Assembly (NCBI GenBank): GCA_025350445.1
Contig: JANXXV010000126.1
Coordinates: 1 to 18,951, forward strand
Reading direction: 5' to 3'
Length of the DNA: 18,951 bases
Source: Bryobacteraceae bacterium
Lineage (GTDB): Bacteria; Acidobacteriota; Terriglobia; Bryobacterales; Bryobacteraceae
Of the stretch, positions 1-16,995 are shown in pieces (within the stretch, counting starts at the first letter, position 1; every line of letters starts with the position of its first letter). Below the pieces are notes generated by a model. That model was not told the origin of the DNA. It saw only the letters and a list, made by a program, of their open reading frames with translations, and did no database searches. The translations under genes were made by a program, and so were the position numbers.

Positions 1-663
1 GGGCATCGCGCCTTCATGGTGCAGCTTCGCGAAGGGCAGGCTGCTCACCCCGGCCGCATCGCCAAGACTTTTGACAAGCTGCGCGCCGCCGGTGGAGACA
101 ACGTAGACTTTGCCCTGGACGGCGCCGCCTCGCTCTCGCCCGGAGTCGCCGGGACCATCTGCGACGCGCTGGAACGTTTCCATCTGCTTTGGTTCGATGA
201 ACCGTGCCCCTCGTTAAACATCGCCGCTTTGCAGAAACTGGCTCTGGAACGGGTGACACCCCTTGGCTTCGGCAGAAGTATCCACAGCGGCACCGGATTC
301 CAAAATCTGCTGCGCGAGGGTGCGCTCGACGTGCTGCGCCCGGACATTGCCCGTAATGGCATCACGCAAATCCGCCGGATGGCGGCCATGGCGGAGACAT
401 ACTACACGGCCGTGGCGCCCTATCACGACGGCGGGCCTATCGCCACCGCCGCCACGCTGCAACTGGCGGCCAGCCTGCCTAATTTTTTCATTCAGCAGAT
501 TCCGGCTCCGCAAGCCGAAGAGGACATCCGCATGCGAGCATCTATCACTGGGGCTTCAATTGAAGCGGTGAAGGACGGATTTGCCGCCCTGCCCACCGGG
601 CCTGGCCTGGGTATCACCGTGAACGAAGAAGCACTAGCGCAGTACGCGGAGCGTGCGGCATGA
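1..663 (+). CDS. Enolase-superfamily (mandelate racemase/muconate lactonizing type) protein, 5' end outside window
   Basis: The reading frame is open from base 1, so the N-terminal capping domain and true start lie upstream; the ATG at 16 is internal. The visible part is the C-terminal barrel. VDFALDG occupies the place of the first metal-ligand Asp and WFDEPCP supplies the second acidic ligand. The usual third ligand in a GER motif is replaced by LGFGRS (Glu to Gly), and the DxH acid/base of the next gene is DFA here. APYHDGGPI matches the usual barrel-end His motif. The family normally abstracts a proton alpha to a carboxylate using Mg2+. With two catalytic positions altered, this copy may have lost that chemistry or belong to a divergent subgroup. 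It overlaps the next gene by ATGA, so the two are probably co-translated. Family is secure; substrate is unknown. Confidence 0.85.
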   Translation, partial: GHRAFMVQLREGQAAHPGRIAKTFDKLRAAGGDNVDFALDGAASLSPGVAGTICDALERFHLLWFDEPCPSLNIAALQKLALERVTPLGFGRSIHSGTGFQNLLREGALDVLRPDIARNGITQIRRMAAMAETYYTAVAPYHDGGPIATAATLQLAASLPNFFIQQIPAPQAEEDIRMRASITGASIEAVKDGFAALPTGPGLGITVNEEALAQYAERAA

Positions 664-1970
664 AACGGCGCGACCTGTTCACCGCCGCCGCAGCCAGCCT
701 GTTCGCCGGTAAGACCGCCATGGCTGGAATCGATTGCGGGTGCGCCTTTGCACCGCCGCAGAACGCGCTTGGCGGCGACGCGTTCCACGCCGTCGGTTCT
801 AAAATCAAGATCACCAACGTGAAGGTGTTCGGCGTCTCGCTGACGCCCGGATCAGACCGCCCCTACGTCTTCGTAAAGATCGAAACGGACTCTGGAGTAG
901 TCGGCTGGGGTGAGGGCACGCTCGAAGGTAAAGCCGCGGCCGTAATGGCGTGCGTTCAGGATTTCCGCGAATTCCTGATCGGCAGCGATCCCATGCAGGT
1001 GGAGCATCACTGGCAGTCGATGTACGTCCACAGCTTCTACCGCGCCGGTCCGGTGATGGGATCGGCCATCTCTGGAATTGACCAGGCCCTTTGGGACATC
1101 CGCGGCAAAGTGCTGGGCCTGCCCGTGTATCAATTGTTAGGCGGCCCGGTGGACCCAAAGGGCGTCCGGGGCTATTACCACGCCCGCGCCAACACGCCCG
1201 ATGAGTTGCAGCAGTTGCGCCAGACGGCGGTGAAGCAGGGCGTCTCGTGCTTCAAGGCGGGCATCCCGGAATACTACGAGTTCATCGAGACGCACGCCAA
1301 GCTCAAGCGCGCCATCAAGCATATGGAGATGCTGCGGGAGAACCTCGGCCCGGACCTGGACATTGCCGTGGACTTTCACGCCAAGACCAGCCCCAGCGTC
1401 GCCTCCATTCTGGTGAAGGAAGTGGAGCCGCTCCGGCTACTCTTCATCGAGGAGCCATGCCCGCCGGAGAACGTGAAGGCGATGGCCCGGATCGCTAAAC
1501 GATCCACCACACCGATCGCCACCGGAGAGCGCCTCATCGCCGCGTACGGCTGTCGCGAACTGATCGAAATGGGCGTCGTGGACATACTGCAAACCGACAT
1601 CAACCACGTAGGCGGAATTACGGCGCTATGGAAAGTGGCCGCGATGGCGGAGGCGTCCGGCATCGTGATGGCACCCCACGCCTGCGAAGGGCCCATCGGC
1701 GCGATGGCCAGCCTGCACGTAGACGCAGCGATGCCGAACTTCCTGATCCAGGAAATTTGCAGCGGTGTGGAACCCGGCCCCAATGAGAAGGTGTGGGCGG
1801 AGTGGATGGGCTTCCCCGTAATGCGCATGGTGGATGGCCGGTTCCCGCTGCCGACCAAGCCGGGGCTTGGCTTCGACCTGACGGAAGAGTCGCTGAAGAA
1901 GTATCCGTTTGGCGGCACGCGTCCGATGGCCAGGGTATTCCATCAGGATGGTTCCGTGGCTGAGTGGTGA
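660..1970 (+). CDS. Tat-exported mandelate racemase/galactonate dehydratase-like enolase-superfamily enzyme
   Basis: This is a 436-residue protein. It opens with [17 protein letters not shown], a twin-arginine signal, so it should act outside the cytoplasm. A full set of MR-type catalytic residues is visible: VDFHAKTS (metal Asp plus DxH acid/base), [17 protein letters not shown], a [13 protein letters not shown] strand and [10 protein letters not shown]. The C-terminal [10 protein letters not shown] resembles the end of D-galactonate dehydratase. In the family these residues dehydrate or epimerise acid sugars via a Mg2+-stabilised enolate. The exact substrate cannot be read from sequence. 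The ATG at 660 overlaps the upstream stop as ATGA, next to a divergent paralogue with a degraded active site. An exported sugar-acid dehydratase is unusual compared with cytoplasmic family members, but the Tat motif is clear. Confidence 0.9.
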
Positions 1971-2944
1971 CGACAGGAGACACCTTTTCCACTACCGCAT
2001 CACGGCGAAACTGGGTGCCGGCGGCATGGGGCAAGTATTCCGCGCCCCCCGATTCGCGCCTGTCCCGCGACGTGGCAATCAAGATTCTTCCGCCAAACGC
2101 GGATGAAAATCTGCATCAACGATTCACCCTTGAGGCGCATGCGGCCGGTGCGCTGAATCATCCGAACATCGTCGCCGTCTACGATGTTGGCTCGCATGAA
2201 ACTAAATCCGGCAGTTCGAGTCCTGCGCATCGTATCAAGTTACTGAATTGCCTCAGGATTTCAACTGCTCCGCAGTTCACCATGCGGGTGATAACAGATT
2301 CCATTGCACCTGCTTGCGGCTAAAGGTCTATTCGATTTTGAGTGGCTCCAACTGCCGGATTTAGGATGAAGGAACTCCAAACATCGTCTCTGAATTGGTA
2401 GTAGGCGAGCCGCTCGGCGATCTGGCAGCACGCGGTCCAGTGCCTGTGACGCAGTTGCTCGACCTGACAACGCAGATCGGGGACGGCATTGCAGCCGCAC
2501 ACGCGGCGGGCATCGTCCATCGCGATCTGAAGCCAGAGAACATCATGATCACTTGGGACGAACGCGCCAAGATTCTCGATTTTCGGACCGGCCAAGCAAC
2601 AGCCCCGCCAAAGCGTTCTAAGCCCAACTGACGAGACGCTCGGCATGACTCACACCCAGCCCGGCCTGATCATGGGAACCGCCAACTACATGAGCCCGGA
2701 GTAGGCCCGCGCCGCCGCGTCCGACTACCGCTCCGACCAGTTCTCTTTCGGCGTAGTTCTGTATGAGACGGTGACCGGGAAACAGCCGTTCTCACGCGAA
2801 ACCACCGTCCAAACAGCGCCGGCACTGCTAGCCGACGATCCCCCGGCAATTCCAGCCGGCGTGAAGATTCCCGCGCCGTTACGCTGGACCATCGACCGCT
2901 GCATGGCGAAGGACCCGCAACAGCGCTTCTATGGCGCGGGTGAC
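1967..2944 (+). pseudogene. Decayed PknB-type Ser/Thr protein kinase
   Basis: Kinase motifs appear in order but in shifting frames. [18 protein letters not shown] (P-loop) is in frame 1. DVAIKILP (catalytic Lys) through [15 protein letters not shown] is in frame 2. GTPNIVSELVVGEPL and IVHRDLKPENIMI (catalytic loop) are in frame 1. DFG-PAKQQ through GTANYMSPE and DYRSDQFSFGVVLYE are in frame 2. The breaks are a shift near 1985-1990, a shift back in the C run near 2045, a 165-bp insertion after 2200, an extra T near 2580 (gattttcgg for gatttcgga) and a TAG at 2701-2703 where relatives have Gln (SPEQA). Homology stops after CMAKDPQQRF near 2944, just before a toxin-antitoxin pair. The original start may have been GTG 1967, overlapping the upstream TGA. 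No functional kinase can be made. Confidence 0.88.
2201..2370. mobile_element. 165-bp MITE-like insertion with 15-bp perfect terminal inverted repeats and 5-bp target duplication
   Basis: CTAAATCCGGCAGTT (2202-2216) and its exact reverse complement AACTGCCGGATTTAG (2350-2364) bound the element. ATGAA at 2196-2200 is repeated at 2366-2370, as a target-site duplication would be. The inverted repeats extend imperfectly a few bases inward. There is no coding capacity, so it is non-autonomous: a MITE or an internally deleted insertion sequence. Removing 2201-2370 joins frame 2 to frame 1 and regenerates the kinase reading SHE-GTPNIVSEL without a gap, which independently supports both boundaries. 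The parent IS family is not identified from the ends alone. Confidence 0.85.
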
Positions 2945-2968
2945 AAATTGTGTTACAAGTACTACTAT
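2940..2968 (+). promoter_or_regulatory. Putative promoter/operator of the toxin-antitoxin pair
   Basis: GTGACA (2940-2945) and TACTAT (2963-2968) are spaced 17 bp and resemble sigma70 -35 and -10 boxes. Between them TTGT-GTT-ACAA (2948-2958) is a short inverted repeat of a kind bound by ribbon-helix-helix antitoxins. The -10 box abuts the ATG at 2969 and no Shine-Dalgarno sequence is seen, so either the start of transcription or the start codon needs adjustment, or translation is leaderless. This AT-richer stretch also marks the junction with the dead kinase gene. The call rests on pattern only. Confidence 0.4.
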
Positions 2969-3211
2969 ATGGACACCACTATTCGGAATCTTGATGAACG
3001 GATCTACCGTGCCTTGAGAGCTCGCGCCGTCCTGCAGGGTCGCAACGTAGGAGAGCTTCTGAATGAAGCGATCGGAGGGTATCTGGCGAGGTTCGCAGTC
3101 AGTCAGGGCCGCTCCACATTACGCGATCTCAAACCCGAGCCGTTTTCGGAGGGCAACGATTTCCTGAGCCAGGAAATCGATGCGATCGTTTACAGAGAAC
3201 GCCGCCAGTGA
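2969..3211 (+). CDS. vapB: Ribbon-helix-helix antitoxin of a VapBC/FitAB-type module
   Basis: This is an 80-residue protein starting at ATG 2969; the open frame extends further upstream only as kinase remnant. Residues 3-40 (TTIRNLDERIYRALRARA then GRNVGELLNEAIGGYL) fit a ribbon-helix-helix DNA-binding fold like FitA-type antitoxins. The C-terminal half, acidic with Phe and Leu, would wrap the toxin. It overlaps the PIN-domain gene by GTGA, the usual coupling in such modules. By family knowledge the antitoxin neutralises the RNase toxin and represses its own promoter; the TTGT/ACAA repeat just upstream is a candidate operator. The module sits exactly at the truncated end of a kinase pseudogene, suggesting it arrived by insertion or deletion. 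Confidence 0.8.
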   Translation: MDTTIRNLDERIYRALRARAVLQGRNVGELLNEAIGGYLARFAVSQGRSTLRDLKPEPFSEGNDFLSQEIDAIVYRERRQ

Positions 3212-3615
3212 TCGTACTCGACTCTAGTTTCCTTATCGGCTTTTATAATGAGCGGGATGTTCACCATGATGAGGCCCGGCTCCTAATGGATCGGTTTCTG
3301 GGAGGCACCTGGGGCAGAGGGCTACTGCTGGAATACGTATTCCTCGAAATCATGACCGTATTGCTATTGCGTCGTGATCTTTCTGTTGCGGCGCGGGTGG
3401 GCCGAATTCTCCTGGATGCGGAAGAACTGGATTTTGTGCCTTGCTCGGAGCTATTTTCCGAAACGATGGAGAACTTTTCGAATCAGGGCGGAACCCGCCT
3501 CAGTTTCGCCGATGCTGCAATCGCATCGGTAGCTCGGAGCCGGGCCGAAGGCCTGTTATTGAGCTTCGACCAGGAGTTTCGAAGAGTTGCCGGACTTCGC
3601 GTAAACCCTGATTAA
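3208..3615 (+). CDS. vapC: PIN-domain ribonuclease toxin (VapC family)
   Basis: A 135-residue protein with a GTG start at 3208 overlapping the antitoxin stop. Acidic PIN residues are in place: Asp5 (IVLDSSFLI), Glu47 (VFLEIMTVL), Asp102 (LSFADAAIA) and Asp121 (LLSFDQEF), which in the family hold divalent metal for RNA cleavage. Length matches VapC proteins. It appears intact, unlike the decayed kinase before it. The target RNA (initiator tRNA, other tRNA or rRNA in known members) cannot be inferred. It is convergent with the small secreted-protein gene that ends at 3682. Confidence 0.88.
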   Translation: MIVLDSSFLIGFYNERDVHHDEARLLMDRFLGGTWGRGLLLEYVFLEIMTVLLLRRDLSVAARVGRILLDAEELDFVPCSELFSETMENFSNQGGTRLSFADAAIASVARSRAEGLLLSFDQEFRRVAGLRVNPD

Positions 3616-3681
3616 TTTGACCCTGAGACCTCTCCGTTGGCGATGGCGAGGCTTGCAACCAAGGCTACGAATGGCTCAAGC

Positions 3682-4092
3682 CTACTTCGTTCGAACCGTC
3701 TGGATAATCGTGACATCCCGGATATCTTGACCGTCCGTTCCGCCGACATAAGGCCGCTGGATCTTCATCCAAAGCTTAGAATTCGCCAATGTAGTTCCCC
3801 CGTCGAGGATGAAAAAGTACCACTTCACCTGTTGTCCGGATGGCAGCTTTGGCCCCGTGCTGCGCATTGTGATCTCCTTGTACCGGCTCTTGTAAAACGT
3901 GTAAACCTGGTCGAGCCCATCGCCCGTCGTGTATACCTCCGACTGCTTGCCCGGTGCGGCTGCGGACGCCTCGCGGCTGGCCTTTTCATCCAACTTGGAG
4001 CCTGCATAAGGCTTAAAGTCTTGGGCCAGACATATGCTATCGACCGCAGCAACCAGCATTCCGGCCGTCAAAATCAATATGGATCTTCGCAT
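3682..4092 (-). CDS. Small secreted protein of unknown function
   Basis: The protein starts MRRSILILTAGMLVAAV with a signal peptide that probably ends after SICLAQ, giving a mature periplasmic or secreted domain of about 110 residues. A segment reading VYTTGDGLDQVYTFYKSRYKEI is followed by the strand WYFFILDGG. The ATG at 4092 was chosen. Two in-frame starts just upstream (GTG 4101 and TTG 4098) are possible, and AAGGGA at about 4104-4109 on this strand would fit the TTG best. It lies about 45 bases downstream of the displaced end of the FAD oxidoreductase, on the same strand, so both may share a transcript. I do not recognise the family. Small exported proteins of this style with a short alpha/beta domain are common in Acidobacteria. 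Confidence 0.7.
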   Translation of the reverse strand: MRRSILILTAGMLVAAVDSICLAQDFKPYAGSKLDEKASREASAAAPGKQSEVYTTGDGLDQVYTFYKSRYKEITMRSTGPKLPSGQQVKWYFFILDGGTTLANSKLWMKIQRPYVGGTDGQDIRDVTIIQTVRTK

Positions 4093-4137
4093 TCGCAACA
4101 CCGTCCCTTAGCCACCCCACGCTAACACGAAACCCCG

Positions 4138-6149
4138 TCACCACAGCCGCACCGCCATCTCCCAGCGGCGCACCGGCCCGGACCTCTTCATCCGAAACGA
4201 CGGCAGCTTTGCTGGAAATCGATCCTCGCGCCAGTCCGTCCAATAGAACGGCAAGTCCGCATGGAACCAGTTCCGATGGTCGGCGGCCATCCAGCCCTCT
4301 TTCACCGCGAGTGCGATGGCATCAGTGATAGAAACGTTAAAACCAAACCGCGCCGCCAGCGCCGCGGCACCTCTCCCCGCGTCAACGGAGCATCCGGCGA
4401 CGCATGCAGACCGGTGTCGCCCAGCGGATACTCGCCGCGTATGGCAGCCATTTGAATAGCGGCAAACGCGGGATGATCCACGCTCAAATCATCGAACCAA
4501 ACGAGCGGCACACCAGCCTCCGCCAATTCCCGCTGGACGTCCGGCGCTCCAGCGGATACCCCCCGTTGCAGCGATAAACTGGCGATCACCGCCGCGGCCT
4601 CACCCACGTTCCATTCAATGGGATGAAGGCGAAAGGCGCCGTTTGTCAGATGCGTGACGCCGATATTCTTCCCCGCGGCCAGAAAATTCGTCACGCCTTG
4701 CGGAACCAACGCCCCCATCGGCAACTGAAACGGCTTCGGCATCATCATCCGGCCGCGCTCATTGGCCCCGCAAGGATGGATGTCCACCATGTAAAAACCC
4801 GTGCCGATCGAATCTGGAAACCAGCGCGCCCGCGGCTGATCGTTCTCAAACACGATGTCCTGTTCGGTGACCCGAGCCTGCCCGCGAATCCGTCGTGACT
4901 CCCGGATGTACGGCGCCTTCGACAACCCATCTTCGGTATCCATCGCGTCCTTGCGCAGCATCAACTCCGGGTACCCGTTCCCCTTGCCGTCATCACGAGG
5001 CAAATCAGTTTGCAGCCAATAGAGGAACGCCAGCGAAACCCGCTTTGCCTGCTGCAGAATGCGCACAGTGTCCAGCGGCGAACGGTCGAGCAGCGACTCG
5101 GAATGGTAATCCTGCTTCGGCCAATTGATCAGTGCCAGGTCCGGCGGCGCATTCTCCCCGGTGAAATTCTTCGCCGCCAGCAATCGCCGCCAACCGAAGA
5201 ACGGCCGCGGCGACATATTGTTGGGCACGGGCGGATCTTCACCGAACATCGTATATTGCACATCGCCCTTCCAGCCATATTCCTTCGGATAATTGACCTT
5301 CAGGCTGAACGCCTGGGAAGCTCGAAGATGCTCATACCCATCCGGCTTTGGGATGCGGTGCTGCTGGCCCGGTCGGTGTTCCACCACAAACGGATACGTG
5401 AAGCTCTGCACGCAAGCATCGTTAGCCGCCGCCGACGCATGCGGCTCCGCAGTCTCACTCTTCGGCTCCGACCCCACCACATAAGGCACATGCGCGAGCG
5501 GCAGCAAGTCGCCCAACTCAGTCGAGTCAAGCACAAACTTCGGCTTGAATCGAATCACCTGGCGGCGGTCGAACTGATACGCCAACACGGATTCAATCCG
5601 CCCACGCACCACTTCCACTTGCAAAACACGAGTGCGCAGAAATGTTTGAATGGGGTATGGTTTCATCATCTGCTGGAGCACGGCCACGCCGGCCTTCGGC
5701 TCAAAGCACAGCGCCGAAACGTAACACGACCCGGGATTGAAATTCTCCATGGCGTCCGCCGCCAGATGGTAATGCGTGCGATAGTAATCCCGAATCCGGC
5801 GCCGCATCTCATAATAGGTGCGCGTTCCCCCGGAGATCTCGATGAACCGGTTCTCATCCAGCGCCGGAACGCCGCCCGACGTGAGCTGACCGCCGATCCA
5901 GCTTGTCTCCTCAGTGAGGCAAACGGAGTGCCCCCGAGCGGCCGCCCGCATAGCCGCCGCCACGCCGCCCATGCCCGCGCCAGCCACCAGAATGTCGCAG
6001 GCGATCCGGCGCGGCGTGGCGGTAACCGTGAGGCTTTGAATTGCGACCCGCGGATCGCCCTCCGCGCGCACCCGCTCCACGTCTACGACGGAAAATTGTT
6101 GAGCCCGCAGAAGGCTAGTTATCATCAAAAGCAAAATCAGCCGCATCAT
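4138..6149 (-). CDS. Exported FAD-dependent oxidoreductase, C-terminus displaced by one frameshift
   Basis: The protein begins MMRLILLLMITSLLRAQQ, a short signal peptide, and then has a Rossmann dinucleotide site (DILVAGAGMGGVAAAM, residues 52-67), CLTEETSWIGGQLTSGGVPA and later LAAGKNIGVTHLTNG. This is the layout of the FAD-dependent oxidoreductase family (PF12831-like). The uninterrupted frame runs 6149 to 4302 and ends in low-quality sequence after DAPLTRGE. One frame over, at about 4368-4370, it continues AAALAARFGFNVSITDAIAL, then KEGWMAADHRNWFHADLPFY and MKRSGPVRRWEMAVRLW, stopping at 4138-4140. The two halves differ by one missing base (2012 nt from start to stop), so this is either a real frameshift mutation or an assembly error. 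Substrate is unknown. Confidence 0.82.
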
Positions 6150-6328
6150 CAGCAGCGTAACGCAATGGCAGGCGTGTTAGTCAAATCATCCACGCCGTAT
6201 CAGATTCCGCTCGATCGGCTTGAATCGCTCACGCCCGCTCATTTCAGCGCGGAGCGCAATACAGCAGGATTGCACGTGATTGTAAAGCACGGCCGGCAAA
6301 TCGGCGAAGACGGTGTCGAAGCCCGACT

Positions 6329-7105
6329 TGCAAAGCCGAAATCTCACAGCAGCAGTGCGATAGTTACGCCGCCGCAAAGATGGCCGAGAGCGATTTACAG
6401 GCTGCTAACGACCGCGCCGCCTGAGCGTCAAACTCTGCGCGGATTGCCTCCGCTTCGCTTGATAGCGCGAAGTTCAAGATTGCCCAGGCGAGCGCCGCGG
6501 TGGATCAGCCGCACGCCAGCCAGCAGCAGGTTGCCATGCGCGGCGTGCGCCTCAGCCTGTTGCCGCCGGAGAACGCCACCGGCAAATACGTGAAGGTGGT
6601 CCAACGGATGCCGGTAAAGATTCTGGTGGTCCCCGCCGCGCTTGAGGAGACTGCGCTGCGTATCGGCATAAACGTGGACGCCATTCCCATCAATGTGGCA
6701 GCGTTCGCCTACATCCCGAAGAACAATATTAACAACGCAACAGGCCTCATTAATTTAGGCCGCAACACCGGAGCCAGCGTGGGCGTCGCGTTAGCAACTA
6801 CGCTGCCGGCGCGCCGGGAACAGCTTCATCACAACAACCTGGTCAGCCATTTGACGCCGCTGGACTGGCGCTATCAACAGACGCTCGATGGCATTGCGCA
6901 AAACATGACCCAGCATGGCGCAAGTGCATCCGGCGCAGATGCCCAGGCGCCTATGATGATCGCGCGGATGGTGCAACAGCAGGCTGCCATGCTCTCCTTC
7001 GCCGACGCGTTCCGGCTATTAGGCGTCATCTGCTTCATCGCCGCTCCATTCGTATCGCCGATCAAAAAGAACCAGCCGCGGAAGGGCGCGGCGCCGGTAC
7101 ACTAA
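6329..7105 (+). pseudogene. Collapsed emrA/emrB multidrug efflux remnant
   Basis: A single frame contains pieces of two genes. First come coiled-coil segments typical of an EmrA/HlyD periplasmic adaptor (AEISQQQCDSYAAAKMAES, DLQAANDRAA, a TGA at 6422-6424, then SARIASASLDSAKFKIAQAS). Next is the adaptor's C-terminal signature LPPENATGKYVKVVQRMPVKI; the barrel between them is missing. Soon after LRIGINVDAI the frame passes into the last part of a 14-TM MFS drug/proton antiporter of the EmrB/DHA2 type (AYIPKNNINNATGLINLGRN, LPARREQLHHNNLVSHLTP, then SFADAFRLLGVICFIAAPFV). The N-terminal membrane anchor and at least the first 12 EmrB helices are absent. At least two deletions plus a nonsense codon explain the structure. 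No transporter can be made. The 5' limit is approximate. Confidence 0.8.
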
Positions 7106-7116
7106 ACTCAAATGAA

Positions 7117-8472
7117 GTGAACGTAGTTCTTGTTTCCACCTACGACCTGGGCCATCAGCCCTTCGGAATCGCCTCGCCCGCCGCCTGGCTGAAGGCCGCG
7201 GGACATCAAGTCACGTGCGTGGATCTAGCCCTCGGGGCGCTTCCGTCACTTCCCATTCGAGAGGCGAACGTGGTGGCCTTGTGGCTGCCTATGCACACGG
7301 CTACCCGCCTGGCCGTCAAAGTCATTGGGAGCGTGAAGCTGCTGAATCCCTCCGCTCGCCTCTGCTGTTACGGCCTCTATGCGCCGATGAACGCCGAATA
7401 CCTGCGCAGCCTTGGCGTCGAAACGATCCTCGGCGGCGAGTTCGAACAGGGACTGCTCGATCTGGCGAGCGGGGCAAGACCCGGCCCCAGCGTCCCGCTT
7501 GACCGCCTGCAATTCGTGCCCCCTGATCGCAGCGGCCTCCCCGGCCTCTCCCGGTACAGCAAGCTGCGCATCAACGGAGCGGAGAAGCGAGTTGGTTACA
7601 CCGAATCCAGCCGCGGCTGCAAACATCTCTGCCGCCACTGCCCGGTAGTTCCGGTGTACAACGGCGTTTTTCGGGTAGTGCAAGCCGACGTAGTTCTGGA
7701 AGACGTCCGGCGCCAAGTGGCCGCGGGCGCGGAGCACATCACCTTTGGCGATCCCGATTTCTTCAACGGTCCAACGCATGCCAGGCGCATCGTCGAAGCG
7801 ATGCACGCCGAATTCCCATGCGTCACCTACGACGCCACTATCAAGATCGAACACCTGCGTAACCACGGGCAATTGCTGCCCGTCCTGCGCGACACCGGAT
7901 GCCTGTTCGTCATCACCGCGGTGGAGTCGGTAGAAGATGAAGTTCTGCGCAAGCTCGATAAAGGACACACCCGGCAGCACTTCATCGAAGTAGTGAACGA
8001 GTTCCGCAGCCTGGGCCTCACGCTGGTTCCGACGTTCATCCCATTCACTCCGTGGACCACGCACTCCGGCTACAGCGATCTGCTGCGCACGATCCTCGAA
8101 CTCGATCTGATTGAAAGCGTTAGCCCGATTCAGCTTGCACTGCGCCTGCTGATTCCGGCCGGATCGCGCTTACTCGAACTATCAGAGATCCGCGAACGGG
8201 CGGGCGAGTTCGATCAGGCAGCACTGCTCCATAGATGGAAGCACGCCGACCCCGCCGTGGACGGCTTGGCGGAACGTGTCCTGCGACTGGTAAACACCGA
8301 ACAGCGCGAGCGCACTCCACGCCGTGAAGTTTTCGGCAAGATTTGGGAAACCGCGAACGGCGTACCCATTTACGAAGACTTCGATCTGATGCCTCGCGCC
8401 ACCATCCCCTATATGGATGAGCCCTGGTTTTGTTGAGCAGAACCAACCGAAGAGCAGTTAGCTCTTGTGTAA
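7117..8472 (+). CDS. CUAEP-tail radical SAM selenoprotein (in-frame TGA at 8434-8436 read as Sec)
   Basis: Residues 1-115 resemble a cobalamin-binding-like domain (MNVVLVSTYDLGHQPFG start, AAWLKAAGHQVTCVD). Cys168, Cys172 and Cys175 in SRGCKHLCRHCP form the CxxxCxxC motif that ligates the 4Fe-4S cluster and S-adenosylmethionine; GAEHITFGDPDFFNGP continues the barrel. The tail reads DEPWFC, then TGA, then AEPTEEQLALV and TAA, so with Sec at position 440 the protein is 451 residues and carries CUAEP. I recall a radical SAM family named for this CUAEP/CCAEP tail, in which Cys replaces Sec in some members. The GTG start at 7117 fits the conserved N-terminus; no good Shine-Dalgarno sequence is visible. 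A SECIS-like hairpin follows the TGA. The reaction is unknown. Normal gene callers would end the CDS at 8436. Confidence 0.88.
8437..8466 (+). promoter_or_regulatory. Bacterial SECIS-like hairpin for selenocysteine insertion
   Basis: After the TGA come 13 bases and then AAGAGC (8450-8455), loop AGTTA (8456-8460) and GCTCTT (8461-8466): a perfect 6-bp stem. The apical loop begins 19 bases after the TGA and has G as its second base. Both agree with the bacterial SECIS rules as I remember them (loop about 16-37 nt from UGA, G in the first two loop positions). In this system SelB binds the loop and delivers Sec-tRNA to the UGA. The hairpin lies inside the extended reading frame. It lacks a T tract, so it is a poor terminator. 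Confidence 0.72.
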
Positions 8473-8611
8473 CTGAAGTAAACGCAACGACGCACCAAAG
8501 GCCCCGGGGGGAGGAAGGGGCGCTGACTCTGCCTGACGTGCTTTCGCGATTCAGATGTTGGCGGCCCGATCTTGAACCGCACCGGACCTTCTCAACCCAG
8601 GATTTACGTTG

Positions 8612-8920
8612 ATGGATTTTGGGCAATATACTCCACATGAAAAAGAGAGTGGCCTCGTTGCAGGCGATCCCGAGTGCGCCGTTATCACATTTCCACTGGA
8701 GGACATTCGCGATCTGGAGTTGTATCAATTCAGCTTTCAGAATGGGATTGCCGATCTTTGGCCGGATAGAGCGGAGCATGGGTTTCGGTTGAAGGTTTGG
8801 CCCTGCTACGGCATCGCGGGGCGGCTACATGCCGGCAAAGCGCGGATCGAATTTGTAACGGCACCCGCCGTGAACTCCGCACTCTTTGCGCCGAAGGCGG
8901 CACCCGGCATAAGATCGTAA
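8612..8920 (+). CDS. Hypothetical protein, about 102 residues
   Basis: The ATG at 8612 is preceded by AGGA (8599-8602), a ribosome-binding site at a reasonable distance of 9 bases. The product is soluble-looking, with no signal peptide or membrane helix; segments include ECAVITFPLEDIRDLELYQF and GFRLKVWPCYGIAGRLHAGK. I do not recognise the family. A long antisense frame overlaps it, but that one looks like a shadow. It lies 139 bases after the selenoprotein gene on the same strand, so a functional tie is possible but unproven. It could also be a spurious frame. Confidence 0.4.
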   Translation: MDFGQYTPHEKESGLVAGDPECAVITFPLEDIRDLELYQFSFQNGIADLWPDRAEHGFRLKVWPCYGIAGRLHAGKARIEFVTAPAVNSALFAPKAAPGIRS

Positions 8921-8974
8921 GATAACGGTTCTCAGCAGGCGGGCCTTTGTCGTTTCGGGCGGCGGGTTCATACA

Positions 8975-10177
8975 GTGGCGTTCACCTTAAACAGCCTCCA
9001 TCACGATGCCATGCGAGACGGGAATGCGACCGGGACACCACTGATCCGCTACGGCGCGGCAGTGATAGCCGTCGCTCTGGCATGCCTCGTCCGGCTGATT
9101 CTGACCCTACCTCTCGGCCAGGAATTCCCTTTTTTCCTCTTCGTTCTGGCGGTTGTATTTTCGGCGGTTTTCGGCGGGAGAGGACCCGGGCTTGCCGCAA
9201 CCGCTCTGAGCGCCGCCATAGTCGACTTCATTTTCATTGAACCCGAATTCAGTTTCATTCCCGCTCACAGCGCCGATACCACGCGGATCATCCTGTTTGT
9301 GGCATTGGGCGTTGTCATCACGCTGGTGGTTGATCGCCTAAGACTGGCGAACGAAGGCCTTCGCCGCTTCGCGCAGGCATCAGGACAGGCGAACCTCCGC
9401 TTGCAGTCCAGTGAGCACGAATCGGTGCAGGCCAATGAACAATTGCAGCGCAGCCAGGACCAGATGACACAAGCGATCGCACGCTTGAAACAGTCCAATG
9501 ACGATCTACAGAAGTTTGCCTATTCGGTATCTCACGATCTGCAAACGCCCATCCGGACGATTGGGGCATTCCGCCAGCTTCTCACCCGGAAGTATCAAGG
9601 CAGACTGGACAAAGAGGCCGACGAATTACTTACCCACATCGACGGCGGCCTGGGGCGCATGAACGCACTGGTTCACGATCTGCTCGAGTACTCGAAAGTC
9701 ACTCATGTGGATGCCGATTTCTTTACTGAAACCGATTGCAACGAAGTTTTGCGCGGCGTCTTAAAGGACTGCGGGGCGACCGTTCCGGAAGCCAGTGCGA
9801 TTGTCGTCGCGGACCCGCTCCCGACAGTCCAGGCCGATCCGGCGAGATTGTCGCAAGTCTTCATGAATTCGATTGAGAACGGGTTGAAATATCGTTCGGC
9901 TCAACTTCCGAATGTACATATCTCCGCCAAACCCGAAGACGGCCGCTGGGTGTTCTCGGTGAAGGACAACGAAATCGGTTTTGATATGGCTTATGCCGGG
10001 CGCATCTTCACGCCATTCGAGCGGCTTCATGGCGCGGGCTCCCGATACCAGGGCAGCGGTATTGGGCTGGCGATCGTGAAGCGGATCGTTGAGCGGCACG
10101 GCGGAACCATTTGGGCCGAATCCGAGACCGGCGCCGGATCTACTTTTTATTTCACGATTCCGGCCTCTAAAACGTAG
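8975..10177 (+). CDS. Membrane sensor histidine kinase (DUF4118-type membrane domain, HisKA, HATPase_c)
   Basis: A 400-residue protein. Residues 22-118 hold about four hydrophobic helices with a VFGGRGPGLAAT loop, like the KdpD-type DUF4118 membrane region. Residues 120-180 are a coiled-coil-like linker (QSSEHESVQANEQLQ). The H box has His187 (FAYSVSHDLQTPIRTI) as the autophosphorylation site. The ATPase domain has an N box (NSIENGLKY, residues 298-306), an F box (FTPFERLH) and a G2 box (GSGIGLAIVKRI). The G1 box reads DNEIGFD instead of the usual DNGIGFD: Glu333, codon GAA at 9971-9973. The GTG at 8975 is the longest start; ATG 9011 is an alternative that keeps all helices. A receiver gene follows and is the natural partner. 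The signal is unknown. Confidence 0.88.
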   Translation: MAFTLNSLHHDAMRDGNATGTPLIRYGAAVIAVALACLVRLILTLPLGQEFPFFLFVLAVVFSAVFGGRGPGLAATALSAAIVDFIFIEPEFSFIPAHSADTTRIILFVALGVVITLVVDRLRLANEGLRRFAQASGQANLRLQSSEHESVQANEQLQRSQDQMTQAIARLKQSNDDLQKFAYSVSHDLQTPIRTIGAFRQLLTRKYQGRLDKEADELLTHIDGGLGRMNALVHDLLEYSKVTHVDADFFTETDCNEVLRGVLKDCGATVPEASAIVVADPLPTVQADPARLSQVFMNSIENGLKYRSAQLPNVHISAKPEDGRWVFSVKDNEIGFDMAYAGRIFTPFERLHGAGSRYQGSGIGLAIVKRIVERHGGTIWAESETGAGSTFYFTIPASKT

Positions 10178-10337
10178 CCTCGTTTCAGGAAACAACCTGC
10201 CAGCCGGCGCGTCTAACAATTAGAAATAGCCGCCGCCGAGTACTATGTAATTTTTCGGTAGAGAAGAACTTCTTTGTTGAGTATTGGGTTATTAAACCAG
10301 CCAGAACTAACCAGGCTGGTAATTCCGCGAGGAGCCG
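10178..10337 (+). promoter_or_regulatory. AT-richer leader of the receiver gene with an inverted repeat
   Basis: This 160-base gap is clearly richer in A and T than the flanking genes. ACCAGCC (10296-10302) and GGCTGGT (10314-10320) form a perfect 7-bp inverted repeat around an 11-base loop, close before the receiver start. GAGGAG at 10329-10334 is a strong ribosome-binding site only three bases from the ATG at 10338. The repeat may be an operator or an RNA hairpin affecting translation. A convincing -35/-10 pair was not found. Confidence 0.35.
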
Positions 10338-10853
10338 ATGTTCCGAATCTTAGTCGTAGACGACAATCCGACCATCGTTTCTCTGCTTCGGGAAACGATG
10401 AAAGATCTGAAACAACGGCACTCTATTTATGACTTGGAAGATGGTTTAGCGGCGCTCGACTTCTTAGCCCGCCGCGATCAGTACGCCGGTGCTCCCCGTC
10501 CGGATTTGATCTTGCTAAGTATGAACCTGCAATACGTGAGCGGGCTGGATGTACTGCGCCGGGTCAAGGCCGATCCTGAACTGCGCAGCATTCCGGTGAT
10601 CGTCTTATCTTCGTCCGTAAATCCGGCGGAGGTACGCAAGGCATATGACTCACAAGCGAACTGTTACCTGCGGAAGCCGTCCGATCTGGAACGGACCTGC
10701 CTGCTGGTTCAGACAATAAAGACGCTTTGGATGGATTTTGCCTTCATCCCGCCGAGCCGGACGAAAACCGTGTTAGAGAATGGCTTCCGAAATGAAGTGG
10801 GCGCGGAAGACGTGTTGGCGGTTTCCCAGCGGCCGGCTGTAGTCACCGCCTAG
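10338..10853 (+). CDS. CheY-like receiver protein lacking the phosphoacceptor aspartate
   Basis: A 171-residue single receiver domain (residues 1-130) with a tail of about 40 residues and no output domain, similar in size to Rcp1-type response regulators. FRILVVDDNPTI supplies the Asp8/Asp9 metal site, VIVLSSS the Ser/Thr switch and NCYLRKPSDL the conserved Lys113. The phosphorylation site, normally LILLDLNLP, reads LILLSMNLQ: Ser61 (AGT) replaces Asp. It therefore should not accept phosphate in the ordinary way and may be a constitutive or protein-binding pseudo-receiver. Its gene follows a histidine kinase with an unusual G1 box after 160 bases. The start is supported by the GAGGAG ribosome-binding site. 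Confidence 0.88.
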   Translation: MFRILVVDDNPTIVSLLRETMKDLKQRHSIYDLEDGLAALDFLARRDQYAGAPRPDLILLSMNLQYVSGLDVLRRVKADPELRSIPVIVLSSSVNPAEVRKAYDSQANCYLRKPSDLERTCLLVQTIKTLWMDFAFIPPSRTKTVLENGFRNEVGAEDVLAVSQRPAVVTA

Positions 10854-11234
10854 AATCACAAATCCGGCGAATTTCTTTTTGAGTAATACGATCCATAAGT
10901 TGCGGCCGCAGCGGAATTTGACGCCTGCCCACGGGCTTTGGGGTTATGCGTCCGGAATGGGCGTGACTCGGAACGCCACGAGTATTCCGGCTCACGAACG
11001 CGAGAAGACAAGCGGAAGACGGCACCTTTGAGATTATCCCCGCCAAAAATCATTGGCCGCCGATTCACGCCGATGAACGCGGATGGCATGGCCCGTCCAG
11101 CTATTTCCTCGAAACCGCAGTAGCTTACGAATCCGGCGTGCTCATCATCCTGGTTACTCCCGGTTCTTCGAAAGCGGAAGTCGATGGAGCAGTTATTAAC
11201 GGGCGGGCGTTTCTAACTACAATAGGAAGACCCC
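10854..11234. other. 381-base intergenic region without a supported gene
   Basis: A frame open from about 10966 to 11234 lacks a suitable start and resembles no family I know. An imperfect inverted repeat, CGTGACTCGGAA (10962-10973) against TTCCGGCTCACG (10985-10996), with one mismatch and one G-U pair, could form a 12-bp hairpin and might end the receiver transcript, but no T tract follows. Near 11050-11085 lies CCGATTCACGCCGATGAACG, similar to short intergenic repeats I have seen in Acidobacteria and Planctomycetes. AGGAA at 11224-11228 is the ribosome-binding site of the next gene. Confidence 0.5.
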
Positions 11235-11846
11235 ATGCGAGCCGTGATCACAGAAAGCGATGTTCCTCTCTCAGGAGAATTGAAGATCGCGATCGGCGCC
11301 ATCGTCACCCCCTCTGCCCGCGACCTTGCCCGCAGCCGGGGCGTCGCCCTGACTGAGGTGTCGAAAGACCAGATGATCACCACGGCCCCCGCGGAGCAAA
11401 CCATCGCCATCGGCGCGGACCATGGAGGCTATGCCCTTAAGGAAGCCCTCAAGCCAATCTTTGCCGAACACAACCTGCAGCTTATCGACGTAGGCGTGCA
11501 TGAAGAAAAGCCGGCTGACTATCCCGATATAGCCGAAAAGGCGGCGCTGATCATCACGTCGGGCAAGGCTACGCGCGGCGTGCTGATCGACGGAGCGGGC
11601 ATTGGTTCCTCGATAGCAGCGAACAAGGTTCCAGGCATCCGGGCGGCCCTGTGCTATGATAAGGTATCAGCTCGAAATAGCCGGGAACACAATGATTCTA
11701 ATGTGCTTACACTGGGCAGTCGGCTCTTGACCCAGTCCCAGGCCGAAGAGGTCTTGCGCGTCTGGCTGACAACGCCGTTCGGCGGCGGGCGCCACTTGAC
11801 CCGCGTGCAAAAAATCCTGGAAATAGAGCGGCGGTATTCAAAGTGA
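11235..11846 (+). CDS. rpiB: RpiB/LacAB-family sugar-phosphate isomerase with N-terminal extension
   Basis: Residues 55-203 form an RpiB fold: [48 protein letters not shown] and [17 protein letters not shown]. The family interconverts ribose 5-phosphate and ribulose 5-phosphate, or related sugars. The position of the catalytic Cys in E. coli RpiB (CGTGIG) is Asp119 here (DGAGIG), so chemistry or substrate may differ. The first 54 residues are extra compared with about 150-residue RpiB proteins and include [19 protein letters not shown], a segment I associate with bacterial-microcompartment enzymes. The ATG at 11235 is preceded by AGGAAG. It overlaps deoC by GTGA. The isomerase-aldolase pair is the hallmark of sugar-phosphate-utilising microcompartments, but no shell gene is in this window. 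Confidence 0.82.
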
Positions 11847-12748
11847 CATCCACCGAACTGGACCAACTGGTTGCCGAAATCGGCGAAGAAATCCTGAACC
11901 GGCTTGGCGGCCCGCGATTTTCCAAGGCTGAAGGGCTCAATATTCCAGACTTGGTCTGCCCGGGTTGCAAAGGCCGCTGCCCGCAAACCTGCGCCAGGAA
12001 GACGAACCAGATCGTCGCCGCTGGCGCCGACCGCGTCTCAGCGAGCGACAAGACCACCAAGATCGACCCCGCGATAGCCGGCTTGATCGACCATACAATT
12101 CTGCGCGCGGATGCCACCCGGGACGACATCGTCAGGATCTGCCAGGAAGCCCGCAAATACTCGTTCGCCAGCGTTTGCGTCAATCCATACTGGGTGCCTC
12201 TGGTGGCGCGCCAATTGGCCGGCTCGCCAGTGAAAGTGTGCACGGTCATCGGATTCCCGCTGGGCGCGACCACCACGGAAATCAAGCGCGCCGAAGCCGA
12301 AGCCGCCATCCGTGTAGGCGCGCAGGAAATCGACATGGTGATCAACGTCGGCGCGCTCAAATCCGGCGACCAGGAGACTGTTAAGCTCGATATTCAGGCA
12401 GTGGCCGATGCCAGCCACAAAGGCGGCGCAATCGTGAAGGTCATCATCGAGACTGCCCTTCTGGACGACAATCAGAAAGCGGTAGCCTGTACCCTGGCGA
12501 AACTGGCTGGAGCGGACTTCGTCAAGACTTCCACCGGCTTCGCCGCCGGTGGTGCGACCGTGCACGATGTGGCATTGATGCGGAGCATTGCCGGCCCCGA
12601 CATAGGCGTGAAGGCATCAGGCGGAATCCGCACGTTGGACGACGTCCGGAAGATGACGGCGGCCGGGGCGACGCGGATCGGCGCCAGCGCCAGCGTGAAA
12701 ATTGCGGAAGCCGCGGCAAGCCCGGCCGGAGTGCCTTCCGCATACTGA
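11843..12748 (+). CDS. deoC: Deoxyribose-phosphate aldolase with microcompartment-type N-terminal extension
   Basis: DeoC splits 2-deoxyribose 5-phosphate into glyceraldehyde 3-phosphate and acetaldehyde. Active-site residues are Asp164 (EIDMVINVG), Lys199 (IVKVIIE) and the Schiff-base Lys228 (DFVKTSTGF); [10 protein letters not shown] forms the phosphate site. About 75 residues precede the usual start of the fold. Residues 4-22 ([19 protein letters not shown]) make an amphipathic helix like those that target enzymes into microcompartments. Then Cys39, Cys42, Cys46 and Cys50 form a CxxCxxxCxxxC cluster ([16 protein letters not shown]) that may bind metal. The GTG start at 11843 overlaps the isomerase stop. 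The GTG start is supported by the helix, which would otherwise be lost. Confidence 0.9.
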
Positions 12749-12759
12749 AAACCGTCCGC

Positions 12760-14520
12760 ATGGCCAACACAACCTCCACACGAAAATCAGCGGTGCGCTT
12801 CAAGGAACGCGCGGAATTGCTTGACTTCCTGCTCGAAGTCTCGGCAACTACGTCCGAGACGCTGGACCTGGACCGGCTGCTTCCAACCCTGGCCGACTTC
12901 ATTGCCCGGGTAATTCCGCACGACCTGTTCGCCATCCTTCTTTACAACGACAAGATGCAGGGCTTGCGAATGCGGTACGCGCGCGGCCATCGCGACGAGG
13001 TGGTTAAGAATGTGACGTTGCAGTTAGGGGAAGGGCTGACGGGCGTTGCCGCCGCCACCCGCCAGACGATTCTGGCGTCAGATGTCCGCTCGGATCCACG
13101 CTACATCAGCACGGTGGATGCGGTCCGCTCGGAGCTTGCCGTCCCGATGGTGGCCCGGGGCAAACTGGTGGGCGTAATCGACCTGCAGTCCACGCGCGAG
13201 AATGCATTCTCCGAGCAGGACGCCGCGCTGCTAAGGCTGCTGGCGGCCCGTGCAGTGGCCTCCATCGACAATGCCCGGCTCTACCAGCGCGTCCAACGCC
13301 AGAACCGGACGTCGAAAATCCTGGCCCATCTGTCGCAGGAGTTCTCATCCATCCTGCAACTCGACGAGTTGCTGAGCAATATCGCCAAGGCCATCCGGGC
13401 GCTGATCAACTACGACGCTTTCAGCATCCTGTTGGTTGATAGCGAGCAGCGGGCGCTGCGGCATCGGTTTAGCGAACGGTACGATCAGCGGGTCCTGCTG
13501 GACAACATTCCGCTGGGAAAGGGAATCACCGGGGCTGCCGCCGTTCAGCGCGAAGTGGTTCGCGTGGAAGACACCCTGGCCGACCCCCGCTACATCGCCT
13601 CGCACCCGGATATCCGTTCGGAGGTCGCCGTGCCGCTGATCGTGCAGGACCGTGTGGTAGGCGTGCTCGATCTGGAAAGCGAGCGTATCGGCTACTTCAC
13701 CGAAGAGCACGTCCGCACACTAACGCTGCTGGCTCCGCAGATTGCCAGCTCGGTTGAGAATGCCCGGTTGTATGAAGAGTTGGCGCAGCGGGAACAGCGC
13801 ATGGAGCAGGATCTCAAAGCCGCGCGCAAAGTGCAGTCGATCCTGCTGCCGCGGGAGGCGCCTGAAATCAGCGGCCTCGAAATCTCAATCGGCCTCCGTC
13901 CGGCGCGGGAAATCAGCGGCGACCTTTACGACTTCTTCGATCATGACGACGACTACGCGCTGATCGCGTTCGGCGATTCCAGTGGAAAAGGCGCGGCCGC
14001 CGCATTGTACGGCGCGCTGGTAAGCGGGCTTCTACGGACACTCGCTCCGCGCATGAACCGGCCGGCACAGTTGATGCGCCGCCTAAACGAGTCGCTGCTG
14101 GAACGGAAGGTGGATGCGCAGTACGTGACGCTGCTGCTGCTGCACTGGGACAAGAAGTTCCACGAACTGACGCTGGCCAACGCCGGCTCGATCCCGCCGA
14201 TGCTCTGCCGCAACGGCGAACGTGTTAAGACCAAGATTGAAGGCGTGCCGCTGGGACTGCTGGACGATCGCGAATATGACGAAGTGACCATCAAGACCGA
14301 GCCCGGCGATGTTTTCCTGCTTTACTCGGACGGCATTCAGGACCAGACCAATCCGGCCGGCGAGGAATACGGCGGCTCGCGCATTTTTAAGGTGGTGGCG
14401 GTTAATGCCGCGCGATCCACCAAGCAGATTGTGGACGCGGTGTTGGCCGACATCGACAAATGGACCGCGGGCGGCCCTATGTCCGACGATCAGACGCTCA
14501 TCGCCTTGAAAGTAACTTAA
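12760..14520 (+). CDS. GAF-GAF-PP2C (RsbU/SpoIIE-type) serine phosphatase
   Basis: A 586-residue protein. GAF domain 1 covers about residues 20-180 (DLFAILLYNDK, LGEGLTGVAAATRQT, ELAVPMVARGKLVGVIDLQS). GAF domain 2 covers about 195-340 with a near-repeat of the same pattern (GKGITGAAAVQREVV, EVAVPLIVQDRVVGVLDLES). A linker helix (REQRMEQDLKAARKVQSILL) leads to a PP2C-like catalytic domain with REISGDLYDFF, IAFGDSSGKGAAAALYG, LLYSDGIQDQTN and SDDQTLIALKV, which supply the metal-binding aspartates. Such enzymes dephosphorylate anti-sigma-factor antagonists in partner-switching stress control; GAF domains sense small ligands. No anti-sigma gene is next to it. It begins 11 bases after deoC and its stop overlaps the lysA start by one base (TAATG), so it is in the same operon. 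Confidence 0.92.
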   Translation: MANTTSTRKSAVRFKERAELLDFLLEVSATTSETLDLDRLLPTLADFIARVIPHDLFAILLYNDKMQGLRMRYARGHRDEVVKNVTLQLGEGLTGVAAATRQTILASDVRSDPRYISTVDAVRSELAVPMVARGKLVGVIDLQSTRENAFSEQDAALLRLLAARAVASIDNARLYQRVQRQNRTSKILAHLSQEFSSILQLDELLSNIAKAIRALINYDAFSILLVDSEQRALRHRFSERYDQRVLLDNIPLGKGITGAAAVQREVVRVEDTLADPRYIASHPDIRSEVAVPLIVQDRVVGVLDLESERIGYFTEEHVRTLTLLAPQIASSVENARLYEELAQREQRMEQDLKAARKVQSILLPREAPEISGLEISIGLRPAREISGDLYDFFDHDDDYALIAFGDSSGKGAAAALYGALVSGLLRTLAPRMNRPAQLMRRLNESLLERKVDAQYVTLLLLHWDKKFHELTLANAGSIPPMLCRNGERVKTKIEGVPLGLLDDREYDEVTIKTEPGDVFLLYSDGIQDQTNPAGEEYGGSRIFKVVAVNAARSTKQIVDAVLADIDKWTAGGPMSDDQTLIALKVT

Positions 14521-15758
14521 TGGGATTCTCCTACGAAAACAAGACGCTTCATTGCGACCAGGTATCGCTGGCCGATATCGCCGAGTCGGCGGGCACGCCG
14601 TGCTACGTGTACTCGGCCGGCGACATTCTGGAACGCTATCACGCCTACGACCAGGCCTTCGGCAGTCATCCGCATCAGGTCTGCTATGCCGTCAAGGCAA
14701 ACTCAAATCTCTCGCTGCTGCGGTTGCTGGCGGATGCCGGCGGAGGCTTCGACATCGTATCCGGGGGCGAACTCTATCGGGTGCTGCAGGCCGGGGGCGA
14801 CCCGGCGAAGACCGTATTCGCCGGTGTTGGCAAGACGGCTGAAGAGATCGAGTACGCCCTCTCGAATAAGATCCACACCTTCAATTGCGAGTCCGAAGCT
14901 GAACTGGAATTGATCGACGGCCTGGCGCGAAAGCACGGCGTCACGGCGCGCGCGGGACTGCGGGTGAATCCCGACGTGGACGCCGCCACGCATCCCTACA
15001 TTTCCACCGGCCTGCGTGAGCATAAGTTTGGCGTCGATATCTCGGAAGTGGAAGCCGTCTACGCGCGGGCCAAGGGGCTGTGCAACATCGCGCTCGAAGG
15101 CGTGAGTTGCCACATCGGTTCGCAGTTGCTGGACACCGGCCCGATGATGGAGACGGTAGACAAGATGCTGGCGCTGGTTGGCCGTTTACGGGCTAATGGA
15201 ATTCCGATCAGGCATCTGGATCTGGGCGGCGGCCTCGGAGTCGCCTATAAGCCGGAGGACAAGGCGCCCGGCATCGCCGAAGTAGTTTCCGCTATCGCGA
15301 GCAAAGTGGACGGCCACAACCTCAAGATCATGGTGGAACCGGGCCGCAGCATCGTTGGCGCCGCGGGCGTTCTGCTGACACGCGTGCTGTTCCGCAAGCA
15401 GACGCCGCGCAAGGAGTTCATTGTGGTGGATGCCGCCATGAACGACCTGATCCGTCCGGCGCTGTATCAATCGCACCACGAAATTATTCCGGTCGAAGAG
15501 CCATCGGAAGACCAAGCGATGCTTGCCGATGTGGTTGGCCCAGTCTGCGAGACGGGAGATTTCCTGGCGCGCAATCGCGAGATGCCGCCGGTGCTGCCGG
15601 GCGCACTGATGGCTGTCTGCACGGCGGGCGCGTATGGCTTCGTGCTGTCGTCCAACTACAATTCCCGGCCTCGCGTGGCGGAGGTGCTGGTGGAAGGCGC
15701 AACGTGGCGCATCGTTCGCCGGCGGGAAACGCTGGAAGATCTGATCAGGGGAGAATAG
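14520..15758 (+). CDS. lysA: Diaminopimelate decarboxylase
   Basis: LysA removes the D-carboxyl of meso-diaminopimelate to make L-lysine, using pyridoxal phosphate. At 412 residues it is full length. Lys59 in VCYAVKANSN is the cofactor Lys. FDIVSGGELYR, GLREHKFGVD, CHIGSQLLDTGP, LDLGGGLGVAY and MVEPGRSIVGAAG are family motifs, and VCETGDFL carries the Cys/Glu that complete the neighbouring active site. The ATG at 14520 overlaps the phosphatase stop; the longer frame reaching 14460 runs into that gene and is not needed. No other lysine-pathway gene is adjacent. The chromate-transporter half follows after two bases. Confidence 0.95.
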   Translation: MGFSYENKTLHCDQVSLADIAESAGTPCYVYSAGDILERYHAYDQAFGSHPHQVCYAVKANSNLSLLRLLADAGGGFDIVSGGELYRVLQAGGDPAKTVFAGVGKTAEEIEYALSNKIHTFNCESEAELELIDGLARKHGVTARAGLRVNPDVDAATHPYISTGLREHKFGVDISEVEAVYARAKGLCNIALEGVSCHIGSQLLDTGPMMETVDKMLALVGRLRANGIPIRHLDLGGGLGVAYKPEDKAPGIAEVVSAIASKVDGHNLKIMVEPGRSIVGAAGVLLTRVLFRKQTPRKEFIVVDAAMNDLIRPALYQSHHEIIPVEEPSEDQAMLADVVGPVCETGDFLARNREMPPVLPGALMAVCTAGAYGFVLSSNYNSRPRVAEVLVEGATWRIVRRRETLEDLIRGE

Positions 15759-15760
15759 CC

Positions 15761-16821: not shown

Positions 16822-16995
16822 CCGCATGGGGAAAGGCTTGGCGGCGGGGCGGGCCAGGGGTCTGACCAATTTTGGCTTTGGCCGGTTGCGCCTTGTCAAT
16901 TAGTGGACGGGACTTCAGGTCCCCGGCTTGAGCAGGTGGCAGGCTTGCGGTTGAATGTGCCTTGGTTCGACCGGGTATCCGCTGAGAAGACGGCC

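Follow-up and report, generated by a model that had tools for sequence, protein, structure and literature searches.

A probable selenocysteine codon in a CUAEP-tail radical SAM gene of Bryobacteraceae, and its amino-acid ligase partner

Can a TGA codon at which standard gene calling ends a protein encode the very residue by which that protein is recognised? The question is raised by a radical S-adenosylmethionine (SAM) gene on contig JANXXV010000126.1 of a Bryobacteraceae bacterium (assembly GCA_025350445.1), of which positions 1 to 18,951 were analysed as a whole and are here called the window. The standard open reading frame (ORF), 7117-8436, has a GTG start and yields 439 amino acids ending in ...DEPWFC. 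A first-pass annotation had proposed that the TGA encodes selenocysteine (Sec), that the protein belongs to a family defined by a Cys-Sec-Ala-Glu-Pro (CUAEP) tail, and that the standard product is 12 residues too short. Direct reading of the codons confirmed that the frame runs on from ...DEPWFC-TGA through AEP and TEEQLALV to a TAA, and the product with TGA read as Sec has 451 amino acids against 439 (Table 1).

The family assignment was supported by a full-length match to the NCBIfam model NF040546, "CUAEP/CCAEP-tail radical SAM (seleno)protein", well above its cut-off of 500 (613.9 bits; residues 3-449, profile positions 1-467 of 468), together with the C-(U/C)-AEP tail itself. The window protein shares both the radical SAM motif and this tail with the family and showed no difference from it among the features tested. 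It also matched Radical_SAM (PF04055) in a Pfam scan, and C168, C172, and C175 were invariant in a 46-row alignment (A3). The closest named homologue among 120 listed, 'MAG: CUAEP/CCAEP-tail radical SAM protein [Bryobacteraceae bacterium]' (P0009), was 82% identical. The family is therefore already named and not new, and its name records no function.

Table 1. Coordinates of the CUAEP-tail radical SAM gene and its parts in the window
Feature	Position	Strand	Remarks
CUAEP-tail radical SAM selenoprotein gene (predicted)	7117..8472	+	GTG start, UGA codon 440 read as Sec, 451 amino acids
Radical SAM [4Fe-4S] ligand motif CxxxCxxC, C168-K-H-L-C172-R-H-C175	7618..7641	+	
TGT = C439, Cys preceding Sec	8431..8433	+	invariant in alignments A1 and A3
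In-frame TGA = Sec440 (predicted)	8434..8436	+	57 TGA vs 24 TGC/TGT in 81 sequences
GCA GAA CCA = Ala-Glu-Pro tail motif	8437..8445	+	80/80 loci; invariant in A3
Tail remainder TEEQLALV (ACC GAA GAG CAG TTA GCT CTT GTG, 8446-8469) and true stop TAA (8470-8472)	8446..8472	+	
Bacterial SECIS-type hairpin (selenocysteine insertion sequence)	8450..8466	+	stem AAGAGC/GCUCUU, 5-nt loop AGUUA

Recoding of the in-frame TGA

UGA codon 440 is almost certainly decoded as Sec, aided by a hairpin that follows just after it. Support for this reading came from the NF040546 match, from an exchange of UGA and Cys codons with AEP kept, from the SECIS-type hairpin, and from Sec machinery in relatives that carry the Sec form. 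The exchange was assessed in 80 loci, the best 80 of 537 confirmed relatives, which had been found by the internal patterns TIKIEHL[LR] and CRHCPVVP and not by their tails. The codon at the Sec site was TGA in 56 and TGC or TGT in 24 (57 TGA, 19 TGC, and 5 TGT with the window included), and AEP followed in each; the pattern used to score tails required A-E-P after the Sec or Cys codon, and no locus failed it. The exchange at position 440 that the first-pass annotation had predicted was thus found, and homologues that end at the Cys with AEP lost, named in advance as contrary evidence, were not: at the DNA level AEP was kept in all 80. Since C-[TGA/TGC/TGT]-AEP recurs in all 80 of these loci and in the window, the tail is not a product of chance. 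Reading UGA as Trp, or a general change of code, was rejected because homologues have Cys at the site.

The same picture held in wider samples. C-(U/C)-AEP was present in 32 of 32 further, hand-chosen radical SAM loci (at least 6 from genomes already counted), and in an alignment (A1) of 24 homologues selected among the 120 listed, 14 had CCAEP and the deposited sequences of the other 10 stop at the Cys. On a tree of 81 proteins built with the tail left out, the Sec/Cys state changed 10 times, and supported branches require at least 8 of these changes. The end of the tail, of the TEEQLALV type, was similar in most Sec forms and more variable in Cys forms. Two draws of genomes were made, in which the TGA position was checked only in fetched loci. 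The first covered 101 genomes belonging to the same family as G025, a Bryobacterales record; the radical SAM gene was present in 54, of which 43 had one in-frame TGA, 9 had none, and 2 gave matches that end before the tail. The second covered 251 genomes of the phylum of G024, whose record bears the name Chloroflexi; here the gene was present in 63 (61 above the family cut-off), 27 with one TGA. A record titled Acidimicrobiia (L062) sits in genome G076, which was drawn from the same family as the Bryobacterales records, and its title is probably wrong; Actinobacteria were not counted among the carriers for this reason.

The window hairpin has a 6-bp stem and a loop, with G in second place, that begins 19 nt past the UGA; it folds at -7.9 kcal/mol over 25 nt (z -3.1). 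It falls within every limit for bacterial SECIS elements set out in the legend to Fig. 2 of PMC13188914: a stem of 4-16 bp, a loop of 3-9 nt that lies 16-37 nt downstream of the UGA and has a G within its first two positions, and a minimum free energy <= -7.5 kcal/mol. An inverted-repeat finder at default settings missed the 6-bp stem, and neither Rfam at its gathering threshold nor a tRNA search gave a match in the window. Across 55 Sec tails (57 minus 2 whose contigs end too early), 311 of 330 stem pairs (six per tail) were kept versus 198.3±5.2, with a maximum of 219, in 200 sets of synonymous-codon shuffles, and the mean fold energy of a 24-nt piece was -9.3 versus -4.6 in 60 shuffle sets. 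Paired changes were seen in the stem, with A-T, G-C, and C-G all present at three of the six positions among Sec rows. In Cys tails the fold energy was no lower than in shuffles (-3.6 versus -3.5). Single folds were weaker than that of the window (Thermomicrobium roseum z -1.2, L018 z -1.3, L053 z -2.3), and those of two Cys forms gave z -0.8 (L007) and z -0.9 (L020, in a different register). Judged from these aligned tails, the hairpin in Sec forms is conserved beyond what protein coding needs.

The obvious alternative is a plain stop at the TGA, with C439 as the last residue and the frame beyond it a relic of a Cys-type ancestor. Standard gene calling takes this side, even in the cultured thermophile T. 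roseum DSM 5159, whose plasmid-borne CUAEP member (gene TRD_RS12835, WP_012643191.1; L109:5935-7400) is annotated as ending in ...TESWFC before the TGA. A relic would decay, yet AEP was kept in 56 of 56 TGA loci; the hairpin is far above the level of synonymous shuffles in TGA forms and barely so in Cys forms; and TGA forms are common, at 56 of 80 loci and 43 of 54 and 27 of 63 gene-bearing genomes in the two draws. A plain stop is highly improbable on these grounds. The T. roseum DNA past its TGA reads GCG GAG CCG, again AEP, and has a hairpin of its own; standard annotation appears to remove the diagnostic residue of CUAEP proteins there too. As a cultured type strain bearing a Sec-form gene, T. 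roseum offers itself as a test organism.

Sec machinery was searched for as selA, selB, and tRNA-Sec in 50 genomes of relatives, mostly drafts, comprising all 24 with Cys-form loci and 26 with Sec-form loci, the top-ranked of 56. selA was above cut-off in 24 of 26 Sec-form and 18 of 24 Cys-form genomes, selB was found at E 1e-60 in 25 of 26 (in G043 it lay in two pieces below the cut-off) and 18 of 24, and a tRNA-Sec of at least 54 bits in 23 of 26 and 16 of 24. This threshold of 54 bits was placed in a gap once the scores had been seen: weaker tRNA-Sec matches occurred in 50 of 50 genomes and in 14 of 14 control genomes, above Rfam's own score in 46 and 5, respectively. Every one of the 26 Sec-form genomes had at least one of the three. 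In the first draw of 101 genomes, selB was present in 87. Six Cys-form genomes (those of L010, L020, L021, L038, L046, and L065) had none of the three at the thresholds used, four of them with a tRNA match of 47-50 bits above the Rfam gathering score.

Several results weigh against Sec decoding at this site. Only 38 of 55 Sec tails (24-nt piece) reached the energy limit of -7.5 kcal/mol, compared with 2 of the 24 Cys tails, and a small hairpin excess was also seen in Cys forms (76 of 144 pairs versus 61.7±3.4, maximum 71). The association of the Sec form with selB gave a plain Fisher p of 0.045 and was not significant over 5 independent pairs on the tree. selB was not found in four Sec-form genomes of the 101 (G056, G062, G082, and G104), which I took as draft gaps, and the evidence on Sec machinery comes from the genomes of relatives, not from the source genome of the window.

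The ligase partner and its neighbours

A single cluster of ORFs recurred downstream of the radical SAM gene: 42 of the 80 loci had a member within 3 kb on the same strand, in most cases no more than about 130 bases away. This ORF matched both ATP-grasp_4 (PF13535) and LAL_C2 (PF18603) in 5 of 5 representatives scanned, and its nearest solved relative was the L-amino acid ligase BL00235 (3vot). The partner shares these two domains with BL00235 (E 1e-36) and BacD (E about 2e-14) and differs from them in forming a separate group that is tied to CUAEP genes, as a rule with one match per genome, far above threshold, a few of them pieces at contig edges. In two ligase loci (L105 of G132 and L107 of G127) one TGA inside the match suggested a second recoding site, which was rejected when the TGA proved to be the terminal stop codon in both.

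The pairing is clearest at the level of whole genomes. In the Bryobacterales family draw, 53 of 101 genomes had both genes, 1 the radical SAM gene only, 2 the ligase only, and 45 neither, and the two genes lay within 3 kb of each other in only 19 of the 53. In the Chloroflexi draw, 63 genomes had the radical SAM gene, 82 the ligase, and 62 both. The ligase also turned up in 38 of 39 selected genomes; in 34 of the 39 the radical SAM locus itself had shown none (some by reason of a contig end), the other 5 were added to these, and the one miss was the genome of L080. It was present in the genome of L003, the nearest row to the window on the tree, and in those of L047, L052, L056, L067, and L073, whose tail DNA is like that of the window. 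This co-occurrence of CUAEP radical SAM and ATP-grasp ligase genes very probably reflects a shared pathway.

A third gene adjoins the ligase, usually convergent and 9 to 51 bases apart, and belongs to the YggX type (PF04362), to which Pfam gives a role in bacterial Fe(2+) trafficking. The small ORFs concerned had been considered as antisense noise, which was rejected once their cluster was recognised as YggX. YggX lay within 3 kb of the ligase in 38 of the 55 ligase-bearing genomes of the family draw, convergent in 37 of these 38. In the Chloroflexi draw it matched in 64 genomes, strongly (at least 97 bits) in 40, of which 38 had the radical SAM gene; in 37 of these 38 the strong YggX lay within 1 kb of the radical SAM or ligase gene. 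Formyltransferases were general in this draw (215 of 251), and within them a distinct group (PF00551, at least 274 bits, the next match being 170) was confined to 33 genomes, all 33 with the radical SAM gene and a strong YggX, and lay within 1 kb of YggX in 30. YggX stands beside the ligase or radical SAM gene in L005, L089, L120, L122, and other loci, and the formyltransferase beside YggX in Chloroflexi loci. The remaining neighbours looked like mixed housekeeping genes (NadA 5, BrkB 4, and UDP-glucose dehydrogenase 3 of 92 ORFs scanned around the 80 loci), and two methyltransferase ORFs among them matched UbiE and general models.

Kinship with ArsL and the proposed pathway

By sequence, the nearest characterised relative of the CUAEP protein is ArsL (NF040542), the radical SAM protein of arsinothricin biosynthesis, with homology over 390 columns at 29% identity (E 2.5e-53). 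Both proteins have tandem Cys at the C-terminus. The ArsL tail reads RCCLKC, whereas the window protein ends in CUAEP with an extra stretch before the tail, and no ars genes were seen in the window ORFs scanned or among the 25 commonest families of neighbour ORFs. An ATP-grasp gene was annotated in 4 of the 5 ArsL-type plasmid loci opened (16 listed), and in a profile comparison one of these ATP-grasp proteins matched the partner ligase at 99.2% (hhalign, E 2.5e-19). As an aside, the ArsL-type plasmid clusters L110, L111, L139, and L140 carry, besides the ATP-grasp gene, a gene for a GTP-binding protein with no stated role, and three of them an aquaporin/MIP channel. Another family, TIGR04167 (rSAM_SeCys, Geobacter), likewise comprises radical SAM proteins with a predicted Sec, but is absent from the 15 NCBIfam matches of the window protein. 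It figures in table rows of two papers as a radical SAM protein with predicted Sec (PMC9312934, PMC13188914).

Taken together, the observations are probably best explained by a Sec-decoded CUAEP radical SAM enzyme that forms a pair with the ligase, an amino acid derived from SAM perhaps being made and then ligated. The first-pass annotation had suggested a redox or peptide-like function for the Cys-Sec tail; the evidence gathered indicates an amino-acid ligase as partner and a relationship to ArsL. My best guess at the putative chemistry is that the radical SAM enzyme makes the SAM-derived amino acid and that the ligase would couple it to another amino acid, while the YggX-like protein may supply or protect iron for the radical SAM cluster and a dedicated formyltransferase may finish the product in Chloroflexi. 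A more far-reaching version is offered tentatively: the CUAEP selenoprotein could be central to a small-molecule pathway that is widely inherited and so far undescribed, in which a radical is passed to a soft element on the Cys-Sec tail to give a new amino acid from SAM, and the ligase turns this into a dipeptide, with the YggX-like protein serving the cluster and, in Chloroflexi, the formyltransferase acting last. It would then represent a second, selenium-using branch of ArsL-type chemistry, carried as core genes in Acidobacteria, Chloroflexi, and Methylomirabilota (by record names) and not in an antibiotic island.

What is new is the near-obligate ligase partner with its YggX and formyltransferase neighbours, on which no paper was found in the open-licence literature. 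The same searches returned no paper for 'CUAEP', and no joint paper for radical SAM with L-amino acid ligase and selenocysteine, radical SAM with YggX and ATP-grasp, or selenoprotein with Acidobacteria and radical SAM; a 2026 review (PMC13188914) does not contain 'NF040546'. These partners would link the CUAEP selenoprotein to SAM cleavage of the ArsL type and place a protein that was an orphan in a pathway whose product can be tested.

A number of findings speak against the proposed pathway. The ArsL profile scored 250 bits against the window protein (E 4.7e-74), below its cut-off of 450, so membership of that family fails. The nearest solved fold to a structure model with Cys in place of Sec was not an aminocarboxypropyl transferase, but the radical SAM diol dehydratase AprD4 (6fd2), which has 18% identity and another substrate class, and whose alignment stops at model residue 417, before the tail. 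An arsenic acceptor is without support from the neighbours: no arsenic gene family was found in the window ORFs scanned, nor among the 25 commonest families of the 92 neighbour ORFs (71 families matched, the 46 rarer ones being unlisted). The Fisher test for the pairing in the family draw (p 4e-25) leaves shared ancestry uncorrected, and 20 genomes of the Chloroflexi draw had the ligase without the radical SAM gene. YggX is general in the family draw (92 of 101) and informative there by position only. Finally, no partner ligase gene lies inside the window; the pairing holds at genome level, and the ligase is therefore expected on another contig of the source organism.

The AprD4 fold also gives room to a different account, a Sec-dependent radical SAM methyltransferase of the cobalamin type or some other radical chemistry of the AprD4/MgmA fold group, with no aminocarboxypropyl transfer and a ligase that uses a different amino acid. 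This deserves to be kept in mind as a real, if less than even, prospect: the closest characterised family is ArsL over nearly the whole length, and the window protein gave no match to B12-binding PF02310 at E 0.001, yet this domain occurs in 12 of the 120 listed homologues. The kinship with ArsL and the tandem C-terminal Cys, together with the ATP-grasp genes of ArsL-type clusters, could be taken to mean an arsenic enzyme, whose Cys-Sec pair binds As(III) to make an arsenic amino acid that the ligase builds into a dipeptide antibiotic. Such an enzyme is improbable, given the lack of arsenic families among the 25 commonest of the neighbour ORFs and the fact that the radical SAM and ligase genes, unlike the plasmid ars islands, are often apart and are present in roughly half of the family-draw genomes.

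The tail may, on the other hand, have no contact with the substrate and act as a thiol-selenol couple that feeds electrons to the cluster or protects it. Adjacent Cys and Sec are a usual redox pair, YggX stands beside the genes, and the idea is compatible with any of the chemistries above. Because the six Cys-form genomes lacking Sec machinery at the thresholds used keep CC-AEP, selenium is not essential for the role of the tail; there is no direct counter-evidence, and I consider a purely redox tail rather unlikely.

Other ORFs of the window

The ORF directly upstream of the radical SAM gene (6500-7105) combines an EmrA-like with an EmrB-like C-terminal piece and looks like what is left of two paired efflux genes. 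Further upstream, ORF 1964-2323 had a weak kinase-like match, with PF07714 just below its cut-off, and ORF 2771-3211 showed kinase-like residues by eye at its start, running into a weak match to a ribbon-helix-helix antitoxin, and was followed by a PIN-domain ORF (3208-3615). On the other side of the gene, at 15704-16821, two adjacent, overlapping ORFs carried chromate transporter domains.
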